Part shown: positions 39,403 through 43,945 of the stretch, in pieces
Numbering within the stretch: the first letter of the stretch is position 1
Layout: the number at the start of each line of letters is the position of its first letter
NCBI GenBank assembly: GCA_015522685.1
Contig: WALU01000049.1
Location: forward strand, 22,441 to 86,440
Length of the DNA: 64,000 nt
Origin: Thermoproteota archaeon
Lineage (GTDB): Archaea; Korarchaeota; Korarchaeia; Korarchaeales; Korarchaeaceae
Direction: 5' to 3'
Position numbers and translations under genes: made by a program
The notes under the pieces: generated by a model
Databases searched by the model: none
The model's input: only the letters and a program-made list of their open reading frames with translations
Told to the model about the DNA's origin: nothing

Positions 39403-39726
39403 TTAGTAACCATAGCCTTCCTCCGTGAAGCCACTTGTCTCTTCCTTTTTGAGATTAAGCTTCAGCATATCTCCTATTGTCGGTCTTCCTAACTTCTCAT
39501 ACTCTTCCGGAGTTAGTGTTATGGTTACCGCAGGCATTTGAACCTGAGCAACTGGAGTAGGTAGCTTCATGTACTTCTCCATAGCCCTGACTACTTGAAA
39601 CATCATAGCTTCCTCCTCGCTCTCAGGAGGAGGTACCTCTTCAACACCTTTAGGCCTGCTTAGAGAGAGGATTACCCCAGGAGGAGCTTTCCTGACTTCA
39701 GTCACTTCTAAATAAAGTTCTAACAT
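39403..39726 (-). CDS. hypothetical protein, 107 residues
   Basis: Not firmly recognised. A beta-strand opening (MLELYLEVTEVRKAPPGVIL), a proline-rich acidic linker (EEVPPPESEEEAM), a helix, then VTITLTPEEYEKLGRPTIGD. The last segment recalls small proteins that accompany archaeal actin-like genes, but no actin is in the window and the resemblance is weak. ATG 39726, with AGGGG upstream, is preferred over ATG 39750. Confidence 0.5.
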   Translation of the reverse strand: MLELYLEVTEVRKAPPGVILSLSRPKGVEEVPPPESEEEAMMFQVVRAMEKYMKLPTPVAQVQMPAVTITLTPEEYEKLGRPTIGDMLKLNLKKEETSGFTEEGYGY

Positions 39727-39798
39727 TATAACCCCTTTTTTGAGTTGCATACATTAATAATGTTTGATCCTCCATTTCTTCAGTAGTCGCTATGAGCA

Positions 39799-41416: not shown

Positions 41417-42430
41417 CTATCTTTCCTCTATAAACTCATCTACAGCCATTCCAAAATGTCTAGCCATTCTACCTTCGACGTATGCTAGTATCTTATCTCC
41501 AATCTTAGCTTCAGTGACTGATAAAGGAGTTCCATCAGGCCTCATTAGAGGAACAGTCTCTGCGAGCTGAAGAATTGCCCAACCTTCTTTTCCATTAGTC
41601 TTAGCCCTGATTAGGACTAAAGGCCTTCTTTCCATCTTAGCCCTTCCTGTGCTCATGACTCTTTTCCTGCCATCCTTGCTAACTGCTAATACCTCTACTC
41701 CAGACCTTATCTCGGATAGATACTTTGTCTTTTCATTCGGCATTAGTATATAGTTTGAAACAGCCCCAGCATTAACCCTGAACTCCCTAGGCGATGTGAA
41801 AGGCGATTCTAAATTCTCACTATGAACTAGGAGGAAGAAAGAAGCGGAACCGCCTACAAGCATTCCCTCCCCCTTTGAAAGGATTGAGGCCGTATCCACG
41901 CAAACCCGATCACCCATACCTACCTCTCTAACCTCAGTAACTTCTGCAGTGACTAGGTGTAGGGGAGTAGCCTCCTCAAGTATTCTCTTAGCCTCGCTTA
42001 ACTCACTTAAATCATGTATGGAGACCACCACTCCCTTTATTCCTCTTTCCAATACTCCCAAGAGGGATCTAGCTTCTTCAAGTGTGGTAGCAATAGCATA
42101 GATCCTATCCCCGCTGCCAAGGCTAGCAATTAAATTCTCTAAAGGAATTATCTTCCAGCCCTTGCTATCTATGAGTACATTCTCAGAAGTAGCAGCTTCC
42201 TCTACTATAGAAAGATCATCTGGACTCTTAATCCTGACTAATGTGAGATCCCCTTTAGAAGGCCATTCTTCCACTTTGACTAGAGATGAAGCATTAACTG
42301 AACCCTCTAAACTCTCCCTCGCTTCCTGACTTAAGGCCAGTATCTTAAAGCCCATCTTAGCAGCTTTCTCTATAATCAGATCGGGAGAGTTATCAGCCAG
42401 AATTATGAGTTCCTTGGACTCCGTAGACAT
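41417..42430 (-). CDS. aroB': 3-dehydroquinate synthase type II
   Basis: Archaeal enzyme that oxidatively deaminates and cyclises the amino-dideoxy heptulosonate precursor to 3-dehydroquinate with NAD, replacing the DAHP route. Conserved segments: DRVCVDTASILSKGEGMLVG near residue 180, NLESPFTSPREFRVNAG near 212, and GRMARHFGMAVDEF at the C-terminus. 337 residues, normal. A 24-bp piece of its 5' region recurs at 42586-42609. aroE and aroK lie 1.6 kb away on the other strand. Confidence 0.92.
   Translation of the reverse strand: MSTESKELIILADNSPDLIIEKAAKMGFKILALSQEARESLEGSVNASSLVKVEEWPSKGDLTLVRIKSPDDLSIVEEAATSENVLIDSKGWKIIPLENLIASLGSGDRIYAIATTLEEARSLLGVLERGIKGVVVSIHDLSELSEAKRILEEATPLHLVTAEVTEVREVGMGDRVCVDTASILSKGEGMLVGGSASFFLLVHSENLESPFTSPREFRVNAGAVSNYILMPNEKTKYLSEIRSGVEVLAVSKDGRKRVMSTGRAKMERRPLVLIRAKTNGKEGWAILQLAETVPLMRPDGTPLSVTEAKIGDKILAYVEGRMARHFGMAVDEFIEER
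42343..42366. repeat. 24-bp direct repeat, copy inside aroB'
   Basis: Exact match to 42586-42609. Within aroB' it encodes the AAKMGFK region near residue 25. A 24-base identity 240 bp apart is not expected by chance. Confidence 0.8.
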
Positions 42431-42585
42431 CGCATTAGCCTATAGAAATGAAGTAATTTAAGTTGAAGTGCGATTCTCTCTGCACTCCCAATATCTAGAA
42501 ATTGTTACATTAACTTGATGGATGCAAATTTCGTTCTACTTGGAGCTTCTCTCTGGCGGTGATTCTATTAGGCTAATAAAGAGCT

Positions 42586-42609
42586 TCTTAAAGCCCATCT
42601 TAGCAGCTT
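42586..42609. repeat. 24-bp direct repeat, intergenic copy; surrounding gap 42431-42732
   Basis: Exact copy of 42343-42366. On the minus strand the surrounding frame reads AAKMGFKKLFISL but is stopped by TAA just before and TAG soon after, so it looks like a degraded partial duplication of the aroB' 5' region. A 75-codon plus-strand ORF (42522-42749) covers the same DNA but has no ribosome site or recognisable family and is not annotated. Nothing else is seen in the 302-bp gap. Confidence 0.7.
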
Positions 42610-42732
42610 ATAGTATTCTCCACATCTTCGATCTCACTGGACTGGATGGTATATATCTAGCCGGTATGGATATTATCCTAACAGGTGCCTGGTCCTTTTC
42701 CCAATTCCCTCACATAATTGTAAGGAGGAACT

Positions 42733-42978
42733 CTAGGCACTTCGATTAAGTATCTCCAAGAACTCTGGTTCTGCACGATACCTGGGCCTTTTCGACAGAA
42801 CCCTCGTTAGCTCCTCCTTTCTCGGTTTACTAATCTCTTCTCTCACTACCTTGACAGCGCATCCTCCGCAGTATCCAGCTCCACTACATAGTAGAGGAAA
42901 GACAATTATTCTGCTTATGATATTAGCAAGCAGTTCTCCTTCAGCTGCATCAGCCATATCAGCTGGGAGTATCTTCAT
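42733..42978 (-). CDS. small Cys-motif protein beside core MetE
   Basis: 81 residues. The middle carries LLCSGAGYCGGCAVKV, a Cys-x5-Cys-x2-Cys loop like the cluster-binding loop of 2Fe-2S ferredoxins; no fourth cysteine follows, so a full ferredoxin cluster is doubtful. The C-terminal part is basic and helical. It begins 22 bp after the methionine synthase gene on the same strand, so the two are likely co-transcribed. It may bind metal and serve that enzyme; this is inference. Confidence 0.6.
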   Translation of the reverse strand: MKILPADMADAAEGELLANIISRIIVFPLLCSGAGYCGGCAVKVVREEISKPRKEELTRVLSKRPRYRAEPEFLEILNRSA

Positions 42979-43000
42979 CTCATCTTCACTTTAGACTTCT

Positions 43001-43945
43001 TTAGATTGATCTAACCACCTCCACTATTACTCTTAGTTTCCTTATAGCTGACTCATAAGCTTCTGGACCAGCTGATTTTAGACCACCGAATCCACAATCT
43101 CCACTTACTAAATCTACTCTTTCCTCGCCAAATCTCTCGATTATAGCCTTTAGAAATCGCCTGACTTCATCCTTGCTCTCCACCCTCAAGCTCTGAGCAC
43201 TGACAATTCCGGGTGAAATTATCTTACCACCTTCCTCCAACTTTTCCCTCGAGAACCTCTCCAAATTAGATCTGGAATTATAGAACTCATGGCTAAGATA
43301 TTTGAGAGGCAGTTTCATCAGCAGGTTTGCCAGTTTAGGAGACAGCTTACCGCATATATGGGTACCTCTCTTAGCTCTCACGTTAGAGAATACCTTCTCG
43401 TATGACTCTACTATATCTTCTTCAGTGTAATCGAATAAGATCCTTCTCCCTATTAAGAGATCGACTACTGGTTCATCAATGAATATATATCCAAAACCTT
43501 TAGAATTTATTTCTCTGGATATCTTGGCGACATATGGTACGAAAAATTCAAATAGATTCTTCTTATCCGCTACTAGTGAATTGAATATACCTCCTTCTTT
43601 TATCTCAACCCTGCTAGCGAGGGTAAATGGACCTGTTATAGGAAATCGTACTTTAGAAAGGTCGAAATTCATTTCTCCAGCGATACTGAGGAACCAATCA
43701 ACTTCCTCTATATTGATTTGAGGTTCTCCTCTTAGATCTATGGGCCTGTACTTCCCTCTCCCTATTGGTTCCAGGTACCCCATCTCAGCTAGGGGTTCAA
43801 GGTACATATCTGTAAAAAGCCTCAGTTGAGGTACTGGAGGTATGGTTATCCCGGCATCTAGCGTATCTAGGAAGGCCTTCCTCAGATTGTTTATTGAGTG
43901 ATCTAGAGGGTAACTGCCCACATGAGACGTCTCCACTTTCGACAC
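43001..43945 (-). CDS. core cobalamin-independent methionine synthase (MetE C-domain type)
   Basis: 314 residues, corresponding to the catalytic half of MetE only. Opening SHVGSYPLDHS; zinc ligands in GTHICGKLSP near residue 195 and SGDCGFGG near 282; substrate Glu/Asp in FIDEPVVDLL near 152. Transfers methyl to homocysteine. Short archaeal forms lack the folate-binding N-half and are thought to use methylcobamide or another protein-bound methyl donor. GTG 43936, six bases after GGTG, may be the true start. Downstream lies the small Cys protein. Confidence 0.82.
   Translation of the reverse strand: MSKVETSHVGSYPLDHSINNLRKAFLDTLDAGITIPPVPQLRLFTDMYLEPLAEMGYLEPIGRGKYRPIDLRGEPQINIEEVDWFLSIAGEMNFDLSKVRFPITGPFTLASRVEIKEGGIFNSLVADKKNLFEFFVPYVAKISREINSKGFGYIFIDEPVVDLLIGRRILFDYTEEDIVESYEKVFSNVRAKRGTHICGKLSPKLANLLMKLPLKYLSHEFYNSRSNLERFSREKLEEGGKIISPGIVSAQSLRVESKDEVRRFLKAIIERFGEERVDLVSGDCGFGGLKSAGPEAYESAIRKLRVIVEVVRSI

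Follow-up and report, generated by a model that had tools for sequence, protein, structure and literature searches.

Outside the methanogens, the methyl donor of archaeal core methionine synthases is unsettled, and one locus in the window (the whole stretch of DNA analysed, 64,000 nucleotides) raises the question in a concrete form: does the short ORF that follows a core MetE gene there encode part of a donor system? An earlier note had described a MetE-like protein without the folate-binding half and, 22 bp further on, an 81-residue protein with a C-x5-C-x2-C motif, which it thought could, as a metal or Fe-S protein, belong to the methyl donor system. As a description this was accurate: spacing and motif are as stated, both ORFs lie on the minus strand, and the first, of 314 codons, lacks the folate-binding half and gives a match to Pfam Meth_synt_2 at E = 2e-8 (Table 1).

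Table 1. Features at and near the core MetE locus, in positions of the window
Feature	Position	Strand	Remarks
Core methionine synthase, MetE catalytic half only	43001-43945	minus	Intact ORF, 314 aa, GTG start
81-aa ORF, decayed stump of the RACE N-terminal [2Fe-2S] domain	42733-42978	minus	ATG start
Continuation of the RACE stump in another frame, QVSCRTRVLGDT	42749-42784	minus	Stop is the next codon; fourth cluster cysteine inside
Non-coding remainder, former site of the RACE middle and ASKHA domains	42431-42732	.	No convincing remnant
Perfect 24-nt direct repeat	42343-42366 and 42586-42609		Copies 243 bp apart
Arcadin-1 homologue	39403-39750	minus	Pfam E = 2e-7

The zinc ligands H196, C198, E220 and C284 are shared by all 46 core MetE family sequences compared, the window protein among them, and so are S11, Q40 and D157 of the homocysteine site (46/46). 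The AF2 model of the protein, for which 22 aligned sequences served as input, has a mean pLDDT of 95.5; its best fold match in the PDB is the methionine synthase 3rpd, and it matches both this single-barrel structure and full MetE structures. A phmmer search of the PDB with the window sequence gave no match, and a profile search recovered MetE structures. Corrinoid- or methylcobalamin-dependent methylation of homocysteine, a further trait of core methionine synthases, is predicted for this family in relatives with an intact corrinoid system.

The 81-aa ORF resembles the plant-type [2Fe-2S] domain (Pfam Fer2) at E = 2e-4 and over 31 residues only, and phmmer found nothing in the PDB beyond weak plant-type ferredoxin-domain matches. 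Plant-type [2Fe-2S] clusters are ligated by four cysteines; the ORF holds three in frame, and the fourth lies in another frame. In the closest relatives it aligns, at about 50-54% identity, with the first ~67 residues of much longer ORFs of 510-556 aa beside core MetE, which encode corrinoid reductive activases (RACE). True in-frame homology to RACE stops near codon 56, the tail being out-of-frame sequence, and is taken up in another frame by QVSCRTRVLGDT, which tblastn aligned collinearly with RLACRTRVLGDA of the RACE of the sister genome, G014 (67% over 12 aa). Because the two homologous pieces combined reach an E value near 1e-15 (2e-15 by tblastn) and the homology crosses into another frame, the resemblance to the RACE N-terminus can be taken as neither a chance match nor the mark of an intact gene. 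Both downstream domains, Raco_middle and RACo_C_ter (the ASKHA ATPase), are absent from the window locus. In the non-coding remainder tblastn returned only weak RACE pieces (E about 0.01 or worse), which we do not claim as remnants and one of which overlaps the 24-nt repeat of the DHQS start. The distance from MetE to DHQS is 570 bp in the window versus about 2.7 kb in the sister genome. No PF14574 match, and no second RACE, was found anywhere in the window genome. On this sequence evidence, the ORF is a pseudogene, what frameshift and truncation have left of a gene for a RACE/RamA-type corrinoid reductive activase of ~540 residues.

That the 81-aa protein nevertheless works as a small [2Fe-2S] or metal protein serving core MetE is highly improbable. 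The frame is open, its start codon lies just behind MetE and it retains three of the four cluster cysteines; against this reading stand the out-of-frame fourth cysteine, the frameshift inside the homology, the loss of both domains for ATP-dependent work, and a dN on its own branch of about 0.23 versus 0.10 for the sister RACE (56 codons only). The would-be functional partners, a corrinoid protein and an MtrH-like protein, are pseudogenes in the window genome as well. A small ferredoxin or metal chaperone was also considered, and was rejected in view of the frameshift and of the full-length RACE homologues in relatives. The suspected link to methyl donation is nevertheless supported: the gene beside core MetE in relatives encodes a corrinoid reductive activase, which serves to maintain a corrinoid methyl carrier. 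The case also carries a caution, in that short ORFs beside enzymes need a pseudogene check before being named as small Fe-S proteins.

Two other features were noted in the surroundings. One copy of the 24-nt repeat lies inside the start of the DHQS gene and the other where the missing RACE domains used to be encoded; the repeat is possibly the scar of a local duplication. Further along the window lies a homologue of Arcadin-1, a crenactin-associated cytoskeleton family, and similar ORFs occupy the corresponding place in several relatives.

The genomes compared are public assemblies, mostly drafts, among them the window genome (G000), its sister G014 and G009, presumably Korarchaeum cryptofilum OPF8, on which the genus name Korarchaeum for the congeners rests. 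In most congeners, a RACE ORF of 510-556 aa lies directly 3' of core MetE. Among five relatives scanned for domains, Raco_middle and RACo_C_ter are clear in all five, and Fer2 scores above its cut-off in four; the fifth protein, whose start was called late, reaches 20.2 versus 21 bits. Fer2, Raco_middle and RACo_C_ter together are the make-up of ATP-dependent corrinoid activases such as RACE and RamA. Well-covered Korarchaeum-type genomes have one RACE each, with the exception of the window genome and G002, which have none; in G003 only the N-terminus is present, at a contig end.

Two further genes follow the same distribution. A single small corrinoid protein, composed of B12-binding_2 and B12-binding domains and most similar to MtbC, MtgC and the cobalamin domain of MetH, is encoded in each congener (the gene of the sister genome is broken by contig ends), the exceptions again being the window genome and G002, which have no intact copy. 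One MtrH-like gene (PF02007) per genome was found in the searched module-positive congeners except G013, a genome of 70% completeness, and none in the window genome or G002; G003 and G006 were left out of this search. The MtrH-like proteins of relatives score 117, 102 and 122 bits against Pfam MtrH (gathering score 22.8), and their gene comes after an MTHFR-like gene in the genomes inspected. A pterin-binding protein of PF00809 had been a candidate for the methyltransferase and was rejected: its distribution is out of step with the module, and that of PF02007 MtrH is in step. Korarchaeum has its corrinoid, MtrH and RACE genes at three separate loci; in the more distant archaeon G053, genes for MetE, corrinoid protein, RACE and MtrH stand in a row.

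A wider scan yielded 43 core MetE loci, 35 of them outside Korarchaeum. At 21 of these 35, at least one of RACE, corrinoid protein and MtrH is encoded within 10 kb of core MetE, and at nine, all of Desulfurococcales type, MTHFR, MtrH, RACE, corrinoid protein and MetE are clustered together (L172, L174, L179, L180, L184, L185, L188, L191 and L201; Staphylothermus and Thermogladius bins are among them). No match to the RACE profile turned up in 22 control loci taken from elsewhere in Korarchaeum genomes. The cobalamin motif DxHxxG is kept in all 24 corrinoid proteins checked, and the four cluster cysteines in 20 of 21 full RACE proteins; in the exception, L179, the called ORF begins too late to include the first three. 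The conservation that the earlier note proposed to survey thus exists for core MetE and RACE, in both Korarchaeum-like and Desulfurococcales-type archaea. Our search of the literature, whose searchable part under-represents subscription journals, found no paper on a cluster of core MetE, MtrH, corrinoid protein and RACE.

These components suggest how methyl groups could reach core MetE. An MTHFR-like reductase would supply methyl-pterin, from which the MtrH-like methyltransferase would pass the methyl group to the Co(I) of the small MetH/MtbC-like corrinoid protein; core MetE would then transfer it from methyl-Co(III) to zinc-bound homocysteine, giving methionine. RACE, through its [2Fe-2S] and ASKHA ATPase domains, would return accidentally formed Co(II) to the reduced state. 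Genetic evidence shows that the bacteria Phaeobacter and Desulfovibrio need RamA-like proteins to make methionine by the B12-dependent route (PMC5764234), and methylcobalamin serves characterised core MetE enzymes as methyl donor in vitro, the suspected donors in vivo being corrinoid proteins (PMC7005905, PMC7857596). The methyl-donor question thereby receives a predicted answer, running from methyl-pterin through MtrH and the corrinoid protein to core MetE, and the five-gene cluster offers a concrete donor chain for core MetE in archaea that are not methanogens. The co-encoded module proteins come from hyperthermophiles.

Two observations limit this assignment. Within Korarchaeum, the link of the module to core MetE rests on co-occurrence and co-decay, and several core MetE loci in Nitrososphaerota, Bathyarchaeota and other Thermoproteota bins (L189 and L193-L198) show none of the genes for RACE, corrinoid protein and MtrH within 10 kb. 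MtrH, corrinoid protein and RACE might instead form a separate C1 or methylotrophic pathway that core MetE merely adjoins or feeds; such proteins are known from many methyl-transfer pathways, and the corrinoid gene of Korarchaeum adjoins a PLP enzyme, not MetE. We consider this improbable, as Staphylothermus, Thermogladius and others have all five genes in one cluster, and a different methionine synthase appears in the two genomes without the module, which points to methionine as the product. The PLP enzyme in question is threonine-synthase-like, and at the Korarchaeum loci that were inspected its gene immediately precedes the corrinoid gene; the G001 ortholog has a C-terminal helix-turn-helix domain, and the gene is intact in the window genome (contig C11, L135 1035-2168) despite the dead corrinoid gene.

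The window genome preserves core MetE and MTHFR intact and only scraps of the other three module genes, at three separate loci. Behind the syntenic PLP gene on contig C11, the corrinoid gene survives as pieces in two frames that lack residues 55-115 and hence the DxHxxG cobalamin motif, and beside the intact MTHFR gene on contig C29 some 40 aa of MtrH are left, likewise in two frames. The window genome is a 63-contig draft, 92% complete, and one might suspect that the three truncations are errors of assembly or sequencing. This is hardly credible: the neighbouring genes are undamaged and syntenic at each of the three scrap loci, hundreds of bases are missing within otherwise clean contigs, and the scraps show diverged amino acids beyond their indels. 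Gene decay in the window lineage goes beyond the methionine module, since a 237-aa gene of the sister genome is also reduced to a two-piece scrap (contig C29, L204 4253-3998). It has run in the opposite direction too: the window genome keeps a complete amidohydrolase gene next to MTHFR (L204 6930-8633), of which only a 67-residue fragment has a match in the sister (L154 5914-6114).

Both genomes without a working module encode a split MetE, an adjacent MetE-N and MetE-C pair (contig C7 in the window genome, C26 in G002) consisting of a Meth_synt_1-type and a Meth_synt_2-type protein with intact zinc ligands. No such pair was found in G001, G009, G011 or G014 (six Korarchaeum genomes were searched in all). 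Between the window genome and G002, identity amounts to 88.7% for one protein of the pair and 77% for the other; both are clearly related to NCBIfam NF003317 and NF006350, yet below the cut-offs. Because this identity exceeds that of the other shared genes compared (49-65%), the split MetE was probably gained by horizontal transfer. Homocysteine methyltransferases of the S-methylmethionine type (PF02574) were found in none of 12 Korarchaeum genomes. In G002, we found neither a module gene nor core MetE. The simplest reading would be that a B12-dependent methionine synthase was replaced by a B12-independent one, completely in G002 and partially in the window genome, where MtrH, the corrinoid protein and RACE have decayed and the split MetE would have taken over methionine synthesis. 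The stump, the conserved module, the parallel decay and the split MetE are seen directly in the sequences, and the reaction sequence, the replacement and its order are deduced from them. The pair at the window locus is thus very probably the local remainder of a dispersed B12-dependent methionine synthase whose module has decayed and whose replacement is the split MetE. Across Korarchaeum, the genomes amount to a natural series of gene loss: a B12-independent synthase is present in both of those that lack a functional B12 module, and one of the two retains an intact orphan core MetE.

This orphan does not behave as plain replacement would predict, for it lacks any sign of decay. RACE, corrinoid and MtrH scraps combined carry at least five disabling lesions in roughly 630 bp, a density at which about seven would be expected in core MetE (a rough figure that assumes equal time and rate), and none is present in its 945 bp. 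Zero lesions versus about seven expected suggests that core MetE stayed in use after the death of its partners, or lost its use later. Its dN is 0.061 on its own branch versus 0.070 in the sister, and the end branches of the tree measure 0.16 for the window genome and 0.14 for the sister. It is accordingly a tangible possibility, though short of an even one, that the gene is no vestige and is kept under selection with another methyl donor or another thiol substrate. The lesion count, the dN values and the full retention of catalytic residues favour continued selection; weighing against it, gene losses may be staggered in time, the rate comparison with RACE rests on those few stump codons, and no core MetE was found in G002. 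A broader version, by which the Thermoproteota have an unrecognised core MetE family with an MtrH, a corrinoid protein and an activase dedicated to it, and the window copy outlived the corrinoid system under selection and now uses another donor, we regard as somewhat doubtful. Replacement by the split MetE remains our preferred reading.

The window core MetE scores far below all NCBIfam cut-offs for methionine synthases and separates from the split MetE-C in the tree with 100/100 support. Against NF002119 (PRK00957), which by our own reading stands for MesA, it scores 68 bits at a cut-off of 258, so this proxy does not place it in MesA. Characterised MesB has Asp in place of Glu665, and most MesC have His in place of Cys643 (PMC7857596), whereas E220 and C198 are kept throughout the window family (46/46 each). 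MesD is co-encoded with MesX (DUF1852) in aerobic bacteria; the host lineage of the window protein is archaeal. A fifth core MetE family is thus a proposal, based on NCBIfam scores and on the published descriptions of MesB and MesC.

Like the window protein, MesA-D and the Dehalococcoides core-MetE consist of the MetE catalytic half only (PMC7857596, PMC7005905), and its H-x-C / E / C zinc site is shared, apart from the His for Cys643 of typical MesC and the Asp for Glu of characterised MesB. For MesA-C, too, a corrinoid-protein methyl donor has been predicted, namely MtrA or CoFeSP (PMC7857596); here, in contrast, the candidate donor is a dedicated corrinoid protein of the MtbC/MetH-like kind, accompanied by an MtrH and a RACE of its own. 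The split MetE resembles Pyrococcus PF1268/PF1269 (PMC7857596), in which MetE-N and MetE-C genes are adjacent as in the window genome and G002, and this proposed replacement belongs to a family separate from the window core MetE. Full-length RACE proteins of relatives share Fer2, Raco_middle and RACo_C_ter with the RACE, RamA and AcsV activases, the window copy being an N-terminal stump. The same division of labour is seen in Phaeobacter and Desulfovibrio, whose MetH or split MetH is reactivated by RamA-like proteins (PMC5764234, PMC12478193) and where a pterin methyltransferase, a corrinoid domain, a homocysteine-activating enzyme and a RamA-type reactivator are likewise combined. The module differs in being archaeal, in its MtrH-like pterin enzyme, and in having core MetE as the homocysteine enzyme instead of the homocysteine domain of MetH.
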